Below are positions 7,859-61,386 of a stretch of 64,000 nt of DNA, piece by piece (within the stretch, counting starts at the first letter, position 1; each line of letters begins with the position of its first letter). Position numbers and translations under genes: made by a program. The notes beneath the pieces were generated by a model. The model ran no database searches. It was not told the origin of the DNA and saw nothing but the letters and a program-made list of their open reading frames with translations. The stretch spans positions 510,540 to 574,539 of the forward strand of contig KV908352.1 of the NCBI GenBank assembly GCA_002005505.1. The letters run 5' to 3'. The DNA comes from Botryococcus braunii (Eukaryota > Chlorophyta > Trebouxiophyceae).

Positions 7859-7880
7859 GAGAATAATACAAATCTGAATA

Positions 7881-8293
7881 CCCGTACCGTCGCAAAAGAT
7901 TGACCCATATTTATATTTTGACCCCCCAAAAAACCCGATTTATTAATTAAAAATAAGAAATAATCCTAAAAATAATGGCACAAATGATAATAATTATTGA
8001 CCCCTCCCCCCCCCCCCCCCAAGACAGTTAAAAATACTATTAACATCCTCATATTCTAACCTACATCAGCACTGAATATCACTTCATTGGCCCAAACCTT
8101 CATCACCGAATCTTTTAATGATGTCAAAGTGTCTCGAGAACTCTCCTACACTTCGTAGGCGTTCGTACGCTGGAAAGAATTCCGGAAAATAATGTCGCAA
8201 AATATTGACCCTCCTCATCCGGCGGTTTATTCATAATTTTAATTTTGACCCCCCAAAAAACGTCGTGGGTCAATCTTTTGCGACGGTACGGTA
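7881..8293 (+). mobile_element. MITE-like unit, left arm of a large palindrome
   Basis: The unit has terminal inverted repeats containing CCGTACCGTCGCAAAAG followed by ATTGACCC, with TTTTGACCCCCCAAAAAA close behind each end. It carries no ORF. A C15 run lies at 8006-8020. An inverted, roughly 85-90% similar copy follows at 8312. Small size, TIRs and AT-rich content fit a non-autonomous DNA transposon; the superfamily cannot be told. Confidence 0.7.
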
Positions 8294-8311
8294 ATATATA
8301 GAATAATAATA

Positions 8312-8697
8312 TACCGTACCGTCGCAAAAGATTGACCCACGACGTTTTTGGGGGGTCAAAATTAAATTTATGAATAAATCGCCAAATAAGGGGGGTCAAT
8401 ATTTTGCGACATTATTTTCCGGAATTTTTCCAGCGTATGGACGCCTAGGAAAGTTCTCAAGACACTTTGACATCATTAAAAAATTCAGTGATAAAGGTTT
8501 GGGCCAATTAAGTGATATTCAGTGTTGATGTAGGTTAGGATATGAGGATATAAAGAATATTTTTAACTGTCTTGAAGGGGGGGGGTCAATAATTTGCGCC
8601 ATTATTTTTAGGATTATTTCTTATTTTTAATTAATAAATCGGGTTTTTTGGGGGGTCAAAATATAAATATGGGTCAATATTTTGCGACGGTACGGTA
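8312..8697 (-). mobile_element. MITE-like unit, right arm of the palindrome
   Basis: Reverse-oriented copy of 7881-8293 separated from it by 18 bp of AT-rich sequence, ending in GACGGTACGGTA. Together the arms could form a roughly 400-bp foldback. Short indels separate the two copies, so they are not a very recent duplication or an assembly mirror artefact. Confidence 0.7.
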
Positions 8698-8780
8698 TAT
8701 ATCATTATATATATTAATTAATATATTTTAATTAATATATTATAATAATTAAAAATTAATATATATCATTATATATATAA
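8698..8780. repeat. AT-rich simple sequence
   Basis: Almost pure A/T with repeated atatat and attaat blocks and a copy of tatatcattatatat at each side. No gene is seen. Confidence 0.8.
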
Positions 8781-13913: not shown

Positions 13914-14247
13914 TGTTGAGTTCTGAACATTTCTAGTGAATGCCTTGTGCTTTAAGTGATCTTCATGTGTGCTCTATTAGGATATGGGTCCATTGAGAAC
14001 ATTAGGTACCTTAAGACACGGTAGATTGTGGACGCTGTCGAACATAAGGTACACTCTGATCTAGATTACACGTTTGTCGAGTGAACTCTTAAGGCTGCCC
14101 CACCGTTGTGAATGCCAACTGGTTGTGAAAGATACTGGGCATTTCAGATGCTAGTCTTGTCCAAGAGTTGTGCATGATACTCAGCAGACAGACGTACGGA
14201 CTGCAGCTGGAGTAACTTAGTATACTGACGACCTGTCTGCCTCGTAC
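13914..14247 (+). repeat. A4 5' LTR, left part
   Basis: From TGTTGAGTTC to ...CCTCGTAC, interrupted by B1 with TSD CGTAC (14243-14247 and 21499-21503). It includes the upstream leader segment that starts AACTGGTTGTG. Confidence 0.92.
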
Positions 14248-14618
14248 TGTTGGAATTTGTGTACTGTCAGGACAATCCAAGGATGACAAATTTTAACCTG
14301 AATAAATTAGCTGTATAGTTGACAATGTGTTCAACTCAAAGGAAACTCTTTGATAGACAGCCAGTGGCCTTTATGGCCACAAGTAGTAATGGATAAAGTA
14401 TCTAAGAACATGGTAGAGAAGGACTTTCCTGTTGTTTGTGGCTATGAAAAATGAGTTTATCCTAATTGTTAATAACGTGATAAACTCAATTGGGATAAGG
14501 GCCAATTTCCAAGGCTCTGAACCTCAACTCTGATACGAATTCATGAAAAAGGGCCAGAACAGCGCAAGTCAACGCGCTGGTCTGATAATACTAGGAGCGA
14601 CTGACCGAAGTCTCAAGC

Positions 14619-15048
14619 AGTCAATCCGTTGTGTTTGTGAAACGTCTTTGTTGTCTCAAACACTGACTCTCAGCCTGATCTCAATTAACTCTCATCTGTG
14701 TTGGCATCGTGGATGCATTGTGTCAGATCAAGAGGAGATCAGACTGGTGAGGCGCACGTTTGTCGCTTACGTTATTCTAGCAGCCATAAGTGCTGCTTTA
14801 TTGAATTTAACTAAGAAAGTATTCTTGGTAATGTGCAGGCCTGTTAAACTGCTTCCATCATACAATGTTGTTGATGTTCAAAGTATTCACTTACTTGGTA
14901 AGCAGTTTACGCTGCACGTTGGTTTGCAGACAAGTAACCGCATTTGAATTACCAGCAAGATACTGATTGTGTAACATGCACAGGATGACACATGCATATG
15001 TATCATCGTCTGTGATTTATAATATTAAATACAAACTGGATCTTGCAG
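14619..15048 (+). repeat. B1 leader segment X with two introns
   Basis: Exon-like blocks 14619-14746 (128 bp), 14839-14897 (59 bp) and 14984-15048 (65 bp) are all repeated without gaps at 15090-15341. The two gaps are 14747-14838 (GTGAGG...GTGCAG, 92 bp) and 14898-14983 (GTAAGC...GCACAG, 86 bp). The segment ends TTGCAG and is followed by GTAATC, another donor-like site. Confidence 0.9.
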
Positions 15049-15089
15049 GTAATCGTTAGATAGACCAGTGTCGTATACTACCCGGTGTA

Positions 15090-15341
15090 AGTCAATCCGT
15101 TGTATTTGTGAAACGTCTTTGTTGTCTCAAACACTGACTCTCAGCCTGATCTCAATTAACTCTCATCTGTGTTGGCATCGTGGATGCATTGTGTCAGATC
15201 AAGAGGAGATCAGACTGGCCTGTTAAACTGCTTCCATCATACAATGTTGTTGATGTTGAAAGTATTCACTTACTTGGATGACACATGCATATGTATCATC
15301 GTCTGTGATTTATAATATTAAATACAAACTGGATCTTGCAG
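15090..15341 (+). repeat. B1 leader segment X', spliced form
   Basis: 252 bp equal to the three exon-like blocks of 14619-15048 joined at GACTG|GCCTG (15217/15218) and TACTTG|GATGAC (15276/15277). It differs from the first copy by two substitutions in the exon-like blocks. It is preceded by a spacer running GTAATC...GTGTAAG and followed by GATCCACA, the LTR end. Confidence 0.92.
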
Positions 15342-15351
15342 GATCCACAAT

Positions 15352-15366
15352 GGTTATGGGCCCACG
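15352..15366 (+). other. B1 primer binding site
   Basis: GGTTATGGGCCCACG lies 2 bp after the LTR end. It is the same half initiator tRNA-Met complement as in families A and C, despite unrelated LTRs. Confidence 0.82.
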
Positions 15367-15369
15367 CCC

Positions 15370-15990
15370 ATGGAGCGACGACCATCTCTGTTGACGGACG
15401 ACGAACTTAATCTGCTCCGCGAAGGGCACTTCCACTGTGATCTATGCAATAAGTGGGTGTCAGGAAAGGTTCCCATTGAAAACGTGAATCGTGCTATTGA
15501 ACGTGGAATTGTTGTGTTCGAAGACTTTTGCCGAGAAGGTATTGAGCAAGAACGTCACTATCAAGCAAAGTTTAATCATCACAAGATTAAGCTAGTTCAA
15601 TCACTTGAAAACTCGAAGTATCCATTTCCTAAGGGTTCGCGTCGAACCTTTTCTCTTGACACTTGGGAAGCTAGACTGATCGATAGAGAAGTTTACTCTC
15701 AAAGGCTTCAAGAACAATATACCACATTAGCTAGATACGAGATCCCGTTGGACTTCTCACATCACTGTTTATTGATTGAGTATGCTACCCTCCTTGCATT
15801 GAGTAAAGGAGCAGGTGTATCGTTGAGTCCTTGGCTTGCACGAGACGAATCACCCTACGAAACTCTGAAAGACAAGCTTGCTGAGACGAACGCCTCAATT
15901 GTGAATGATTTAGAAGACGGTACAGAGCAAAGGTGCAGGTGTTACATTCCCAGGCATGGCAACATTGGCTACGAACCCTACCCCAGGTAA
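15370..15990 (+). CDS. B1 extra ORF upstream of gag (ORF0), unknown function
   Basis: A 206-codon ORF whose ATG lies 3 bp after the primer site, leaving almost no other leader. It overlaps the gag start by 35 bp in a different frame. The product is charged, mostly helical-looking and has no signal peptide or membrane segment. A CDLC pair near residue 25, a later CREG, and HHCLLIEYATLLALSKG near residue 130 are the notable points. I do not recognise a family. An ORF in the same place occurs in family C (37325-37849) but no convincing similarity is seen by eye. It may be an N-terminal Gag module, an RNA-binding accessory protein, or a leader ORF affecting gag translation. Confidence 0.7.
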   Translation: MERRPSLLTDDELNLLREGHFHCDLCNKWVSGKVPIENVNRAIERGIVVFEDFCREGIEQERHYQAKFNHHKIKLVQSLENSKYPFPKGSRRTFSLDTWEARLIDREVYSQRLQEQYTTLARYEIPLDFSHHCLLIEYATLLALSKGAGVSLSPWLARDESPYETLKDKLAETNASIVNDLEDGTEQRCRCYIPRHGNIGYEPYPR

Positions 15991-17467
15991 TCCATCGAAT
16001 CCACAAGTAAATCAACCCTCAGCTGGTAATACTAGTCAGTCTGCCCAGTCAGGTAATAGCATAGATCAGACAAACCCTGTTTATACCAATCTAAAACTGG
16101 TTCAGGCGTTAGACCTGGATTGTGAAAACGATTTTAGATGGCATAAAGATGTTCTGAATGTTGCTAATAGCAAACGTATTAAGATGTGTCTAGACGAAGA
16201 GCATCCTAATACAGCAGGAGACTCTCTTGCTATGAGTCTTCTAACTGAGAAAATTCCTGACGTTTGGGTGGACAGGGCATTGGACATGCCAAACGCAAAG
16301 CAGGCCTATGACTGGCTGCTGCGCAAGTTCACTGGTGGCCACAATGAGGAGTTAATGAGGAAATGGTCCAAGGTCTTGGACTATGGGCGTATCGATGAGG
16401 GTCAGGAGTACCATTCATATGTTGATAGGAAGTTCAGGATTGCAAGAGGTCTACAAGCCAATAATCACCCATGCTCTGATGGTAGGCTAAAAATGGGGAT
16501 TGTAGAGGGTTTGCCCAAGCATTTTGACCATGCCAAATCAAATCTCTACACCTCCTGCCTTGGTGAGGATGAGGACAAGGTCACACTCAATATTCAGGCA
16601 TGTTCAAGGTTGCTTGGAATTGATGAATTTAAGGCCCCCTCACCATCAGTCAATCTTATCAATCCAGTCAGAGGTCCCCCTCGTCCCAGGAACGCTCCAA
16701 GATCCAGGCCACCGGGGATGCCAGAAGATCTGCCTGACAACTTCAGGGGCTGCTCGCACTGCTTGGAAGATGGACATACCAGAAACGTGTGTCCAAAACT
16801 TATGGCTGAGAAAGAAAAAAGGGCTGCCCTCATTTCAGCACGCAAGAATCAAGCCAATCCAGTTGGAGGTATTGCATTGGGGGACTCTTCTGACTCAGGT
16901 AATCCATTCTCTAGATGGGTGGTAGACTCAGGAGCCGCAACAAACATATGCAATGATGTTAGACTAATGCAAAACATTCACTGGTATACACAGCCAAAGG
17001 GTCTAAATTTGGCAACTGGTGAACATGTTGCACAACGCAAGGCATGTGGTTCTGTGTGCTTAGTAGATGAAATGGGGAACATGTGTAAACTTAAAAATGT
17101 AGAATATGTACCTACTGCAACTGAAAATTTGTTGTCGGTCTCTAGTGCAGTTACAGATGGCATCATATTTACAAACAATTCACATGGAGAGATTATCAGT
17201 ATGTACAGTAATGCCTCAAAATTCATCTCTGAAGTCAGAAAAGAAAGAGGACTGTACTTTGTTTACTGCTTGTGCTGCAAAATTCAGCTCTCACATAGTG
17301 TTGGATATGCTCACAAATGCTCTGAATATGATTTGTGGCATCAACGCTTGGGACATCCAGGAAGTAAAAACCTGGAACGACTGCAGACTGAGGATATGGT
17401 GAAGGGAATAGCTACATCTCTGTCTCCTTGCTTACATGGTCATTCACTGTGTGATATGTGTGTGTGA
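15956..17467 (+). CDS. B1 gag-protease-integrase N-terminal part
   Basis: Starts at ATG 15956 inside the end of ORF0. Gag spans about residues 1-300 and has a complete CCHC knuckle (CSHCLEDGHTRNVC, 266-279). The protease motif VVDSGAAT is at 322-329. The integrase finger begins with LWHQRLGHPG and reaches CDMC before a TGA. The stop results from a 2-bp excess in a TG run at 17456-17465: the next frame continues with the expected VMGKQ. Before that slip this would have been one gag-pol frame. Confidence 0.93.
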   Translation: MATLATNPTPGNPSNPQVNQPSAGNTSQSAQSGNSIDQTNPVYTNLKLVQALDLDCENDFRWHKDVLNVANSKRIKMCLDEEHPNTAGDSLAMSLLTEKIPDVWVDRALDMPNAKQAYDWLLRKFTGGHNEELMRKWSKVLDYGRIDEGQEYHSYVDRKFRIARGLQANNHPCSDGRLKMGIVEGLPKHFDHAKSNLYTSCLGEDEDKVTLNIQACSRLLGIDEFKAPSPSVNLINPVRGPPRPRNAPRSRPPGMPEDLPDNFRGCSHCLEDGHTRNVCPKLMAEKEKRAALISARKNQANPVGGIALGDSSDSGNPFSRWVVDSGAATNICNDVRLMQNIHWYTQPKGLNLATGEHVAQRKACGSVCLVDEMGNMCKLKNVEYVPTATENLLSVSSAVTDGIIFTNNSHGEIISMYSNASKFISEVRKERGLYFVYCLCCKIQLSHSVGYAHKCSEYDLWHQRLGHPGSKNLERLQTEDMVKGIATSLSPCLHGHSLCDMCV

Positions 17468-20358
17468 TGGGCAAGCAGACTAAAGAGAGCTACCAAAGAT
17501 CCCCAGTATCAGCAACTGAACGTCTTCAGCTGTTGCACTTGGATGTAATTGGTGAGCTACCAATTCCAGGAGCTGAGGGTGAACGCTACATGCTCACAGT
17601 ACTAGACGATTACTCTAGAGCTGGTGAATCCGTAGCATTGACTTCCAAGTCCCAGGTGGGTGGTGCTGTTAAGTCAATCATCCTGTACTTGGAAAATCAG
17701 ACTAATCACAATGTTAAGGTGGTTAGGTCTGATAGGGGAAGTGAGTTTGTAAATGCTGACTTGCTTGACTTTTTTCAGTCTAAAGGGATCAGACATGAAA
17801 CGTCTGCTCCTTATACCCCTCAACAAAATGGAAGAGCAGAACGTTTTAACAGATCCTTGAAGGAGAAAGTTATAATGCTTCTTTTGCAGGCAAAAGCTCC
17901 ACAGAGCATGTGGGCGGATGCACTTCCAACAGCTGTTAGGTTGTTAAATCTCAGAGCAGTAAAGGGGAAGACAGCCACTCCCTATGAACTGCTGTGTGGG
18001 AGGAAACCATCAGTGCACTACTTAAGAGTGTGGGGATGCTTGGCGTTTATCAAAATACCAGATAAGGATCTGTCAGCCTTTTCGGCTAGATCTGAGGCTG
18101 GGATGTTTGTGGGATATGAGCCTGCATCAAAGGCCTACAGAGTTAAGGTGGGGAACAAGGTAAAGGTGTCAAAGAACGTCAAATTCTTTGAAGACAAATT
18201 AGGAATTCATGCTCTCACTCCCAGTAATTCTCTCACTGCTGAATTCTCCCAGGAGATAAATTTTGATCAAGTTCCATGCACTGATGATGGGGATGATTGG
18301 GATTTTGTACCGGTAGACCTCACTGGTGCATTGGAATTAAACAGGGAAGCTGGAAGGGGTATTGCCACAACTCTCCCAGCTAACATGGAAGTCATGCACA
18401 GGATGAATGATATCCTGAGAGGCTTGGGAACAGCGGAAGAGAGTGGTCCGAGTGGGTTATCTGGGCCAGGAGCTCCAGGGGAAGGAGTAGTGGGCACTGG
18501 GAACATGCAAAATCCAGTGTCACATGCACCAGACAGTTCAGGTGAAGAATCAGATAATCAACCTCCTGCTGAAACCAGTGACTCATTTGAGGAAATGCAA
18601 GGTGGTGCCAGGAATGGTGGAGGTAGATACGAACTGAGGCAAACGTTGGCAGAACCAGACAGGTATGTTCCGGGTACATACCACATTGGGGAAGCGCCAG
18701 TCACATATGCATCAGAAATAATCCCTCCAAATCAAAATGGTGCACAAGAGCAAGTGAAATTATCATCCAAGAATATCAAGGTTCCAGAGGACTGGTGGGA
18801 GGCTAAAAAATCCCCACAGTGGCCATACTGGTTTGAAGCCATGAATGAAGAGATGGATTCTATAGACTCTCATGAAACGTTTGAATATTGTGAGAGACCC
18901 TCTGATGCCAAAATTATTCCTTTAAAATGGGTCTATGCTCTAAAGACTGACAGTTTTGGTGATATTGTCAGATTTAAGGCGAGACTGGTGGCACAAGGTT
19001 GCAAGCAAAGGCCAGGTGTTGACTACTTTGAAACCTTCGCTCCAGTAAGTACACACACATCTAGGAGGGTGCTGTTAAATCTGACTACGTCAAATGGGTG
19101 GAAAGTTCACCAAGTTGATGTGAAAACAGCATTCCTAAATGGAACACTGGATGAGGAAGTGTATGTAGCCCAACCTCCCTGTTTCTTTAATGGCGATTCT
19201 AATGTTGTGTGCAAGCTACTAAGATCTTTGTATGGTCTGAAGCAAGCACCACGTGCATGGCACAAGTGTCTGGTTGAAGAGCTTGGAAAATTTGGGTTTA
19301 TAGCCTGTCAAAGTGATCCAGCGCTCTTCATCAACAAGGAGTCATTCAAGTCATACGTATACTTGTTGGTATATGTGGATGATTTGCTGATTGTGAGTGA
19401 GGATGTGGAATGTATTCAGTGTGTTAAGCAACAGCTGACTAGTATATTCTCAATTCACGATCTTGGTGAGATAAAGTCATTTTTGGGCTGTGAAATCAAG
19501 ATAAATGAATCCTCACATACTCTGAAAATGACCAATGTCCTGAAAATTGAGAAATTGGTGGAAGAGTATGGGCTGCCTGATCAGGGGAAGGAGGTTGATA
19601 CACCCATGTCAGGTTCCTTCTTGCCTACCCAAATGCCTGAACCTCCTAAAGGGATGACTGGAGAGCAGATTGGATCAGGAATTCCCTTACCAGAAGGTCA
19701 CAGGTATTTAGAATTAATTGGTTCACTACAGTATTTGTCAACAACTACAAGGCCTGATATTTCTCAAGCTGTGGGGATGTTGAGCAGATTTAGAGGACAG
19801 CCAACAACATCCCATTGGAATGGAGCAATTAGAGTACTGAGGTACCTCAACTGCACCAAATACATGGGAATTAAGTATACTGGATCAAATAAAAATGAAC
19901 TGGTATGCTTTGTGGATGCAGATTTTGCAGGTGATCTGGACAGTAGAAAATCCACAACTGGGTTTGTGTTTCTATTGAACGGGTCTGCTGTATCCTGGTC
20001 AAATAAGAGGCAAACTTCCATAGCAACATCCACTGTGGAGTCTGAATACATTGCTGTGAGTGCAGCAGTGAAAGAAGCCATGTGGGTGGGAAGTATGCTC
20101 TGTGAGTTGGGAGAAGAGATCACATGTGTAACCATGTATTGTGATAATCAGGGGTGTGTGTCAAACCTGAGAAATCACATGGTCTCTAAACACACTAAAC
20201 ACATCAGTGTGAGTTACCATCATGCACGAGAGAAGGTGGTCTGGGGTCAGATTGATCCTACATATGTGCCAACTACTGAAAATGTAGCTGACATGTTCAC
20301 AAAGCCACTAGCATCTACTGTGTTTGAAAGGCATCGTAACATGTTGGGAATGCAGTAA
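17458..20358 (+). CDS. B1 integrase core, reverse transcriptase, RNase H
   Basis: 966 codons, continuing the polyprotein after the TG slip; the first Met is not a natural start. The integrase triad is D29, D92 (RSDRGSEF) and E128 (NGRAERFN), with the usual 35-residue spacing between the last two. RT has KTAFLNG, LYGLKQAPRAWH and YVDDLLI near residue 639. RNase H follows with CFVDADFAGD, TSTVESEY and YCDNQG. It ends 38 bp before the 3' LTR, and all catalytic residues seem present. Codon use is more A/T-rich than in family A. Confidence 0.95.
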   Translation: MCVMGKQTKESYQRSPVSATERLQLLHLDVIGELPIPGAEGERYMLTVLDDYSRAGESVALTSKSQVGGAVKSIILYLENQTNHNVKVVRSDRGSEFVNADLLDFFQSKGIRHETSAPYTPQQNGRAERFNRSLKEKVIMLLLQAKAPQSMWADALPTAVRLLNLRAVKGKTATPYELLCGRKPSVHYLRVWGCLAFIKIPDKDLSAFSARSEAGMFVGYEPASKAYRVKVGNKVKVSKNVKFFEDKLGIHALTPSNSLTAEFSQEINFDQVPCTDDGDDWDFVPVDLTGALELNREAGRGIATTLPANMEVMHRMNDILRGLGTAEESGPSGLSGPGAPGEGVVGTGNMQNPVSHAPDSSGEESDNQPPAETSDSFEEMQGGARNGGGRYELRQTLAEPDRYVPGTYHIGEAPVTYASEIIPPNQNGAQEQVKLSSKNIKVPEDWWEAKKSPQWPYWFEAMNEEMDSIDSHETFEYCERPSDAKIIPLKWVYALKTDSFGDIVRFKARLVAQGCKQRPGVDYFETFAPVSTHTSRRVLLNLTTSNGWKVHQVDVKTAFLNGTLDEEVYVAQPPCFFNGDSNVVCKLLRSLYGLKQAPRAWHKCLVEELGKFGFIACQSDPALFINKESFKSYVYLLVYVDDLLIVSEDVECIQCVKQQLTSIFSIHDLGEIKSFLGCEIKINESSHTLKMTNVLKIEKLVEEYGLPDQGKEVDTPMSGSFLPTQMPEPPKGMTGEQIGSGIPLPEGHRYLELIGSLQYLSTTTRPDISQAVGMLSRFRGQPTTSHWNGAIRVLRYLNCTKYMGIKYTGSNKNELVCFVDADFAGDLDSRKSTTGFVFLLNGSAVSWSNKRQTSIATSTVESEYIAVSAAVKEAMWVGSMLCELGEEITCVTMYCDNQGCVSNLRNHMVSKHTKHISVSYHHAREKVVWGQIDPTYVPTTENVADMFTKPLASTVFERHRNMLGMQ

Positions 20359-20383
20359 CTGATTGTTGGCATGTCCTGAAATT

Positions 20384-20395
20384 ACAAGGGGAAGA
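20384..20395 (+). other. B1 polypurine tract
   Basis: ACAAGGGGAAGA directly before the 3' LTR (one T intervenes). Confidence 0.8.
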
Positions 20396-20396
20396 T

Positions 20397-21498
20397 TGTT
20401 GGAATTTGTGTACTGTCAGGACAATCCAAGGATGACAAATTTTAACCTGAATAAATTAGCTGTATAGTTGACAATGTGTTCAACTCAAAGGAAACTCTTT
20501 GATAAACAGCCAGTGGCCTTTATGGCCACAAGTAGTAATGGATAAAGTATCTAAGAACATGGTAGAGAAGGACTTTCCTGTTGTTTGTGGCTATGAAAAA
20601 TGAGTTTATCCTAATTGTTAATAACGTGATAAACTCAATTGGGATAAGGGCCAATTTCCAAGGCTCTGAACCTCAACTCTGATACGAATTCATGAAAAAG
20701 GGCCAGAACAGCGCAAGTCAACGCGCTGGTCTGATAATACTAGGAGCGACTGACCGAAGTCTCAAGCAGTCAATCCGTTGTGTTTGTGAAACGTCTTTGT
20801 TGTCTCAAACACTGACTCTCAGCCTGATCTCAATTAACTCTCATCTGTGTTGGCATCGTGGATGCATTGTGTCAGATTAAGAGGAGATCAGACTGGTGAG
20901 GCGCACGTTTGTCGCTTACGTTATTCTAGCAGCCATAAGTGCTGCTTTATTGAATTTAACTAAGAAAGTATTCTTGGTAATGTGCAGGCCTGTTAAACTG
21001 CTTCCATCATACAATGTTGTTGATGTTGAAAGTATTCACTTACTTGGTAAGCAGTTTACGCTGCACGTTGGTTTGCAGACAAGTAACCGCATTTGAATTA
21101 CCAGCAAGATACTGATTGTGTAACATGCACAGGATGACACATGCATATGTATCATCGTCTGTGATTTATAATATTAAATACAAACTGGATCTTGCAGGTA
21201 ATCGTTAGATAGACCAGTGTCGTATACTACCCGGTGTAAGTCAATCCGTTGTGTTTGTGAAACGTCTTTGTTGTCTCAAACACTGACTCTCAGCCTGATC
21301 TCAATTAACTCTCATCTGTGTTGGCATCGTGGATGCATTGTGTCAGATCAAGAGGAGATCAGACTGGCCTGTTAAACTGCTTCCATCATACAATGTTGTT
21401 GATGTTGAAAGTATTCACTTACTTGGATGACACATGCATATGTATCATCGTCTGTGATTTATAATATTAAATACAAACTGGATCTTGCAGGATCCACA
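20397..21498 (+). repeat. B1 3' LTR
   Basis: 1102 bp, same length as the 5' LTR, and it carries both the intron-containing and the spliced leader segments. A few substitutions separate the two LTRs, for example AGATCAAG versus AGATTAAG. Confidence 0.95.
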
Positions 21499-21503
21499 CG
21501 TAC

Positions 21504-21860
21504 AGGTGCGGTGCGGCAGTGTGTGTTGTGTCATTGTTGCTATTGTGAGAGTGAACAACCTTAGTGTACCCTGTAGTCACTTAAACAGACAAGGGAAAGT
21601 GACTGTAGGGAGTATAGGCATGTACTTGAACGTAGCCGCCTAGAGCCTTATCTAGTAATTGCTTGATCGATGCTTGAGTGCAATACAATGATGTAACGGA
21701 ACTGGTTGTAAAAGATACTGGGCATTTCAAATGCTAGTCTTGTCCAACAGTTGTGCATGATACTCAGCAGACAGACGTACGGACTGCAGCTGGAGTAACT
21801 TCGTATACTGACGACCTGTCTGCCTCGTACAAGATACGCCAATGCCCATAACCTTTTGCA
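21504..21860 (+). repeat. A4 5' LTR, right part
   Basis: Continues the LTR cut by B1, from AGGTGCGG to TTTTGCA. It contains the downstream leader segment (GGAACTGGTTG... to CTCGTACAAG). Joined with 13914-14247 it gives 691 bp, equal to the A2 LTRs. Confidence 0.9.
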
Positions 21861-21875
21861 GGTTATGGGCCCACG
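21861..21875 (+). other. A4 primer binding site
   Basis: GGTTATGGGCCCACG directly after the LTR end. The leader that follows (cccttccagctgagcc) also matches that of A1 and A2. Confidence 0.82.
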
Positions 21876-22262
21876 CCCTTCCAGCTGAGCCAAGGGCAGA
21901 CAGGAGTGCATGTCATCATCGGATGCAACTGTACTGGGTTTTCCACGGACTGGCCCGACGGCAAGAAGAGAAAAAAAAGGAACAACTGGATATTCACTCA
22001 GAAGGCCTACCTACAGAGTCTTCAATCTCTTGGGAAGTTTTTATCGTGAAATGACCTGAGTTTATCACACGTCGTCGTTATCGTGAGACCGTCAGTAGGT
22101 CCGGGTGGTCAGGCGATTGAATTGCTGAAGAATATCTTGCATATTAAGCTACACAAGGTTACATGCTAGACCTCGAAAGGGTGGAATACTTGGAAGTGCC
22201 GTGGTGTACGCCGGAAGGTTATGCTTAAGTCAGCTGTGTCAGGCTGAACGCTGTGAGAGGAA

Positions 22263-61060: not shown

Positions 61061-61345
<285 letters not shown>

Positions 61346-61354
61346 AGAGCGAGG

Positions 61355-61386
61355 TTTTTAGGGTTTAACCCTAAACCCTGAAACCC
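61355..61386. repeat. short inverted telomere-like repeats
   Basis: TTTTTAGGGTTT meets AACCCTAAACCCTGAAACCC, so plant-type TTTAGGG units are arranged head to head. Too short for a telomere; an interstitial insertion or repair scar fits. Confidence 0.7.

Follow-up and report, generated by a model that had tools for sequence, protein, structure and literature searches.

LTRs that hold an intron-bearing and a spliced copy of one leader suggest splice-dependent retrotransposition in Botryococcus braunii

The B1 element of Botryococcus braunii contains a predicted RNA leader twice in each of its LTRs, once with introns and once with the same exons joined. It lies in a 64,000-nucleotide stretch of DNA, which was analyzed as a whole and is referred to as the window. 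Each LTR comprises exon 1, intron 1, exon 2, intron 2 and exon 3, then a 41-bp linker, and then exons 1, 2 and 3 without interruption. Because the same arrangement is found at many further places in the genome, the duplicated leader is not a product of chance. B1 is probably part of an extensive group of Ty1/copia elements whose RNA leader would be spliced and whose first strand transfer would depend on that splicing.

The B1 element and the layout of its LTRs

B1 is a Ty1/copia element located at positions 14248-21498 of the window, with LTRs at 14248-15349 and 20397-21498. Its features are as follows.

14243..14247 (left) and 21499-21503 (right), + strand: target-site duplication CGTAC
14248..15349, + strand: 5' LTR, 1102 bp, TGTTGG...CCACA, 99.64% identical to the 3' LTR
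14248..14618, + strand: U3-like part, 5' of the predicted transcription start, as judged from the start of the repeated leader
14619..14746, + strand: exon 1 of copy 1, delimited by block comparison; predicted RNA start at 14619
14747..14838, + strand: intron 1, 92 bp, GTGAGG...GTGCAG
14839..14897, + strand: exon 2 of copy 1
14898..14983, + strand: intron 2, 86 bp, GTAAGC...GCACAG
14984..15048, + strand: exon 3 of copy 1, with the end CTTGCAG
15049..15341, + strand: intron 3, 293 bp, GTAATC...CTTGCAG, which holds the linker and the entire copy 2
15049..15089, + strand: linker
15086..15090, + strand: TGTAA, predicted poly(A) signal; predicted cleavage at about 15103 (21252 in the 3' LTR)
15090..15341, + strand: copy 2, joined exons 1-2-3, of which the first ~13 bases are the predicted R
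15342..15349, + strand: LTR tail GATCCACA
15352..15365, + strand: primer-binding site GGTTATGGGCCCAC, complement of the tRNA-Met(CAT) anticodon arm
15370..15990, + strand: ORF of 206 aa without a Pfam match
15956..17467, + strand: ORF of 503 aa with Pol_BBD and gag_pre-integrs
17458..20358, + strand: ORF of 966 aa with integrase core, then RVT_2 (copia order)
20386..20395, + strand: AAGGGGAAGA, a tract rich in purines ahead of the 3' LTR, likely the PPT
20397..21498, + strand: 3' LTR, arranged as the 5' LTR, offset +6149

The two LTRs differ at 4 of 1102 positions and both carry the duplicated leader, as the initial annotation had stated. Their TG...CA ends and the short duplication CGTAC fit Ty1/copia, and the 966-aa ORF contains rve at residues 21-121 and RVT_2 at 473-717, which places integrase ahead of reverse transcriptase. 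All 14 nucleotides of the primer-binding site GGTTATGGGCCCAC are complementary to the anticodon arm encoded by a pair of tRNA-Met(CAT) genes in the same genome, which we take to be the initiator form. Because the site complements this arm of a host tRNA, the B1 primer is probably a tRNA half.

Relatives of the B1 pol are metagenomic, the best at 71% identity; named relatives occur in Volvox africanus (43%) and Gonium pectorale (40%), in each case over 54% of the query. A metagenome protein cluster of 69 members (P0001) is 71% identical to the B1 pol, and its sequences suggest a host relative that carries a related element. No relatives of the primer-site pattern or of pol were detected in viral_contigs, nor of pol in genome_contigs, and an Rfam scan of window positions 14000-22000 gave no match. 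B1 is flanked on both sides by sequence that matches the LTR of another family, and this stretch resembles an LTR of the window's family A. Elsewhere, the window includes a self-complementary stretch of about 820 bp (7878-8698, 87%) that forms a large inverted repeat, and a degenerate tandem array at 61061-61360 with copies mostly 8 bases apart.

Three blocks of 128, 59 and 65 bp in the upstream leader (14619-14746, 14839-14897 and 14984-15048) are repeated, joined, at 15090-15217, 15218-15276 and 15277-15341. Block identity is 99%, 98% and 100% over 129, 61 and 67 nucleotides, the blocks being slightly longer in this comparison because bases at the junctions are shared. The 92-bp and 86-bp gaps are absent downstream with no base gained or lost, which bears out the earlier description of the repeat.

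Two features add to that description. The third block of copy 1 is followed by a third donor, CAG|GTAATC, with its acceptor where copy 2 terminates: the block ends in CTTGCAG in both copies, and the next bases are GTAATC (15049) in copy 1 and GATCCACA in copy 2. The donor at 15049 and the acceptor at 15341 thus delimit a predicted third intron that holds the linker and all of copy 2. Removal of introns 1 to 3 from the leader yields the plan of copy 2, 250 of whose 252 letters equal those of the exons in copy 1. The second feature is a TGTAA that closes the linker and shares its final base with the start of copy 2. Together, the third intron and this TGTAA suggest a route by which the introns survive retrotransposition.

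Recurrence of the arrangement in the genome

A pattern for the primer site matched 569 places in the 176-Mb genome with at most 3 mismatches, and a pattern for the spliced exon 1/exon 2 junction matched 82; the control count was 0 for both. Sets of 60, 20 and 12 loci were inspected, besides 40 returned with block and pattern searches, all in one genome. A duplicated leader is present in 63 of 69 primer-site loci that were picked from the 100 best-matching of the 569, and for two of the 63 (L027 and L032) the entry describes a nested or neighboring LTR. The rest of the 69 are three intronless single-leader loci (L016, L022 and L031), one partial locus (L121) and two with no duplicated leader (L098 and L124).

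The window supplied 10 of the 125 LTR entries in the resulting census, and other loci in the genome the remaining 115; all have a usable duplication. Two places are entered twice (L028 is the place of L003, and L032 that of L033), and the entries L027, L070 and L089 describe a neighboring or nested LTR of a one-exon family. B1's own two LTRs are left out, as are L041, L055 and L121, which are too short or weak. Single-link clustering at 80% identity over half the length yields 12 families, and 7 groups without an inter-group match at E<=1e-10 over 50 nucleotides, although by eye some of these groups still resemble one another where exon 3 ends.

The plan is common to groups between which blastn finds no similarity, and its exons number one, two, three or four. 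L093, L094 and L096 have LTRs with no blastn match to the B1 blocks; these LTRs follow the plan too, with three exons in L093 and L096 and two in L094. L123 has four exons, whereas L127 has one, as do the other LTR families of the window. Where a family has one exon, a duplicated leader by itself is no proof of splicing. In the window's families A (at about 0.6, 6.8, 28.5, 41.4 and 47.7 kb) and E (about 23.2, 24.8, 32.1, 37.9 and 56.2 kb), a leader of one exon likewise occurs twice. In the one-exon family of L127 (C260:3940) and L128, a palindrome spans the LTR end and the primer site; its sequence in L127 is CCCATAACCTTTCAAAGGTTATGGG.

Splice sites and the TGTAA are conserved across the census. 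Internal gaps begin with GT and end with AG in 191 of 199 cases at a tolerance of 3 bases. A last intron, with GT past the last block and AG closing copy 2, is present in 108 of 125 entries at the same tolerance (17 lack it) and in 113 under a wider tolerance that admits shifts of up to 12-14 bases; its donors include CAG|GTAATC, CAG|GTAAGA, CAG|GTGAGA, CAG|GTACGG and CAG|GTAACT. The final base of the TGTAA lies between -6 and +1 relative to the copy 2 start in 111 entries, and 14 entries lack the TGTAA. When the same test was moved by about 30-60 bases, 14 displacements gave means of 8.6 internal gaps, 3.6 last introns and 0.5 TGTAA, with maxima of 55, 9 and 3. As expected of a splice-dependent cycle, copy 2 corresponds to the upstream leader after splicing, including a last intron that spans copy 2.

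These counts bear on the idea that an intronless leader was duplicated in tandem and that introns were later inserted into the upstream copy, which would likewise leave GT-AG gaps in one copy only. However, such a history requires repeated intron gain at exon borders, always in copy 1, as well as homogenization of the exons. It does not explain why the last block carries a donor and the end of copy 2 an acceptor in 108 entries, and LTRs in which both copies are intronless and the linker is present number none among the 125. We regard this history as hardly credible.

The initial annotation had named, as evidence against itself, other LTRs whose downstream copy keeps traces of introns or whose gaps shift in position. 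The block maps show no final copy 2 that holds an intron. The interruptions of copy 2 in these maps are a 32-bp stretch in L068 and insertions in L027, L072, L073 and L111. The extra 32 bases of L068 lie between exons 2 and 3 of copy 2, at about 1404-1435 of its + strand. Alternative splicing was considered for L027, L072 and L073 and set aside, as these cases read as nested LTRs of a one-exon family; in L029, the candidate is a point change in the intron-2 acceptor.

Variant LTRs were collected by their ends. The B-type LTR end occurs at 113 places (control, 1) and the boundary between exon 3 and GTAATC at 112 (control, 0), and 100 of each were listed. Of these 100 ends, 84 lie 250-340 bp downstream of a listed boundary, the most common spacing being 293 bp. 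Nine of the other 16 have the intronless order U3-exon 1-2-3 (two on C35, two on C322, and L022, L089, L136, L138 and L140). L137 retains introns 1 and 2 and is missing the linker and copy 2, L047 and L084 are standard LTRs despite an unlisted boundary, L071 is truncated, L027 is nested and L139 is a fragment; C468 was left out. Two LTRs, L008 and L080 (diverged subfamily), have an extra intron-bearing unit and still end in a spliced copy. The intronless and triple LTRs fit a splice-dependent model, and they also fit plain recombination between exon-1 repeats. Being equally products of such recombination, they were rejected as direct proof of splicing.

Some of these variants belong to defined elements. 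Two elements with intronless LTRs, at C35:96200-103782 (L016 and L041) and on C322 (L031 and L052), each have an LTR pair that is identical over 633 bp; 2 differences separate the elements, which occupy different sites and share the target duplication GCCAC. An element on C261 (L003 and L008; target duplication AAAAG) combines a standard 5' LTR with a 3' LTR that has the extra intron-bearing unit. L003 and L008 therefore differ in structure, yet a comparison of their U3 and introns gave 0 differences in 549.

Intron 1 also contains a hairpin around CATAAGT (window 14780-14796) that recurs across diverged families, with changes on both sides of the stem (CAGC/GCTG in B1 versus CGGC/GCCG in L093). 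Since the motif is missing from 60 of 108 sequences scanned, we base no claim on this hairpin.

Lockstep evolution of the two copies

The two copies of the leader evolve in lockstep. Over 87 three-exon LTR entries, the exon distance between copy 1 and copy 2 of the same LTR has a median of 0.0040, a mean of 0.0120 and a maximum of 0.1446, and the median between LTRs is 0.138. The mean exon distance between LTRs is 0.156 at intron differences of 0.2-0.3 and, near saturation and on rough alignments, about 0.48 at 0.3-0.6. Distances from copy 1 to copy 1, from copy 2 to copy 2 and from one to the other are close to equal. In 83 of the 87 entries an LTR's own copy 1 is closer than the copy 2 of any distant LTR, the exceptions being L078, L080, L091 and L100. 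No clade made up purely of copy 1 or purely of copy 2 exceeds 3 leaves. In only 49 of 87 entries do the two copies of one LTR share a clade with no more than 6 leaves, presumably because many LTRs are nearly identical.

According to the initial annotation, the downstream copy had passed through spliced RNA, and a misplaced first-strand transfer would account for its place in an LTR that is then inherited through replication. The first part stands: the data support the derivation of copy 2 from spliced RNA, most simply through a putative strand transfer to the 3' end of the RNA. A one-time misplacement with passive inheritance from then on is not supported. If spliced strong-stop DNA had, on a single occasion, been misdirected to an unspliced 3' LTR, and the double LTR had since been inherited as plain DNA, a single family and exact splice junctions would be accounted for. 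However, copies 1 and 2 should then fall into two distinct clades, with a distance between them no smaller than that between families, whereas the medians are 0.4% within LTRs and 13.8% between them, and the plan also occurs with one, two and four exons. One accident is therefore very improbable. Because the plan is shared by dissimilar groups with one to four exons, and because the copies appear to be homogenized at replication, the arrangement looks like a recurring part of the replication cycle.

Insertions with both LTRs indicate when the copies become alike. From 16 candidate pairs of 5' and 3' LTRs, 11 were kept for matching target duplications, as judged from the flanks (L017/L043, L059/L060, L019/L077, L085/L086 and L011/L067 were dropped); in the pairs L037/L056 and L021/L045, 12-13 kb lie between the two members. 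For the 11 pairs kept, U3 plus introns differ between the 5' and 3' LTRs at 18 of 6031 sites, and copy 1 differs from copy 2 within LTRs at 21 of 5538. The similarity of these two values means that the copies were near-identical at insertion and drifted later. The divergence between copies also increases with an age proxy (Spearman 0.49, 86 entries). Near-identity at insertion followed by drift suggests that homogenization is tied to replication, and it seems not to occur in resting DNA.

Gene conversion or recombination at the DNA level could also keep the copies alike, in which case splicing would have made the first copy only. The triple LTRs (L008 and L080) and the intronless LTRs are the expected products of recombination at exon 1 and speak for such exchange. 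However, the growth of copy divergence with the age proxy and its closeness to the divergence of 5' and 3' LTRs leave room for little homogenization after insertion. Conversion tracts that cross introns should also put introns into copy 2, or strip them from copy 1 with the linker kept, and judging from block lengths no copy 1 of the latter kind occurs in the 125 entries. This explanation is thus quite improbable. The lockstep evolution implies a spliced template, and because no spliced copy 1 with a linker is found, the introns at the 3' end of the RNA appear to be unspliced.

Predicted replication cycle and known systems

In the available text of two reports, UGUAA is the chlorophyte poly(A) signal, with a peak about -17 from the cleavage site (PMC1868727), and Chlamydomonas signals lie on average 14 nucleotides upstream of cleavage (PMC3439250). 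Applied to B1, this spacing predicts an RNA end at about 21252 in the 3' LTR, which is ~13 bases inside copy 2. These first ~13 bases (AGTCAATCCGTTG) are also the first bases of exon 1, where the RNA is predicted to start, and they are a usable candidate for a short R in strand transfer. A TATA-like sequence near -30, looked for upstream of the predicted start, is weak.

In the proposed cycle, transcription would begin in the 5' LTR, at the first exon of copy 1. Introns 1, 2 and 3 would be removed, to give exons 1-2-3 followed by the LTR tail and the primer site. Removal of intron 3 would take out the linker, the poly(A) signal within it and copy 2, and in this way would also rid the 5' leader of a poly(A) signal. 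The 3' end of the RNA would retain introns 1 and 2 and be cleaved about 12 bases past the TGTAA, ending in the first ~13 bases of copy 2, which equal the 5' end of the RNA and would serve as R. The minus strong-stop DNA, copied from the spliced leader, would then pair with this short R and be extended through the linker, exon 3, intron 2 and onward to U3. The intron-bearing copy 1 of the new LTR would thus come from the old 3' LTR, and its copy 2 from copy 1 of the old 5' LTR after splicing, so that the LTR would be the fixed point of the cycle. If intron 3 remained unspliced and transfer occurred to copy 2, one unit would be added (compare L008 and L080).

Another possibility is that the element replicates mostly from unspliced RNA, by ordinary transfer within a long R of ~480 nucleotides, from the start to the poly(A) site, with occasional spliced templates that refresh copy 2. 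The standard LTR would also be regenerated if unspliced strong-stop DNA were transferred to copy 1, and the triple LTRs are expected when this DNA lands on copy 2. However, the copies are near-identical in the 11 datable insertions, which implies that the spliced route is used often, and we consider a mostly unspliced route unlikely. On balance, we lean toward a mode of retrotransposition that is old and depends on splicing. Its short R would require a spliced leader, spliced RNA would be the replicative genome, and the LTR would store both forms of the leader, with the spliced one rewritten in every cycle. The leader introns, from one to four with the last one counted, would have changed between families while the cycle was kept.

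Half-tRNA-primed Ty1/copia elements include copia of Drosophila and Osser of Volvox. B1 resembles them in its INT-RT order, TG...CA LTRs, 5-bp target duplication and primer site for the anticodon arm of tRNA-Met(CAT). We know of no half-tRNA-primed copia element with introns in its LTR or with a second, spliced leader there. MMTV and similar retroviruses have a very short R, with strand transfer over ~10-15 bases. Their R is one contiguous stretch, whereas the predicted start and poly(A) site of B1 are ~480 bp apart, and its short R exists because the start of the leader is repeated. A conventional U3-R-U5 arrangement has a contiguous R and a replicated RNA that is unspliced between the start and the poly(A) site; in the LTRs compared here, the lockstep evolution of the copies implies a spliced template.

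BARE1 of barley splices a 104-nucleotide intron, and its spliced RNA can express only Gag; in the available text, its authors state that elements must avoid reverse transcription of spliced RNA (PMC3735527). Both BARE1 and B1 are copia elements with spliced RNA, which in B1 is predicted, but the RNA that is reverse transcribed appears to be the spliced one in B1. In split-intron retroviral vectors (Ismail et al. 2000, as described in the available text of PMC3182074), a splice donor in the LTR is moved by reverse transcription. These vectors are engineered and, in that description, have one LTR donor and one downstream acceptor, and no second spliced copy is mentioned. A further candidate for an engineered parallel was rejected, as its intron is located in the 5' UTR of the vector and not in the LTR (PMC5542766, in the text available). 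The introns of EVADE and Ogre are named for subgenomic RNAs, with none within an LTR in the portion of PMC12786077 available. Titles and the beginnings of abstracts among the best-ranked matches in mainly open-access literature revealed no LTR with the structure of B1.

The introns of LTRs with this plan have persisted through deep divergence. Passage through RNA is expected to lose introns. In B1, the DNA records the spliced RNA beside its unspliced source, and the record appears to be renewed at each transposition. Each new insertion would report how the leader of its parent was spliced, which amounts to a natural assay. The arrangement opens three matters to test: splicing as a required step of replication, the splicing of a sequence at the 5' end of an RNA when the same sequence is kept at the 3' end, and the means by which an element bypasses a poly(A) signal that its 5' LTR contains, here within an intron. 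Spliced RNA is regarded as a dead end for LTR elements in the available text of PMC3735527; if the reading favored here holds, RNA splicing would instead be a working step of the replication of the element.
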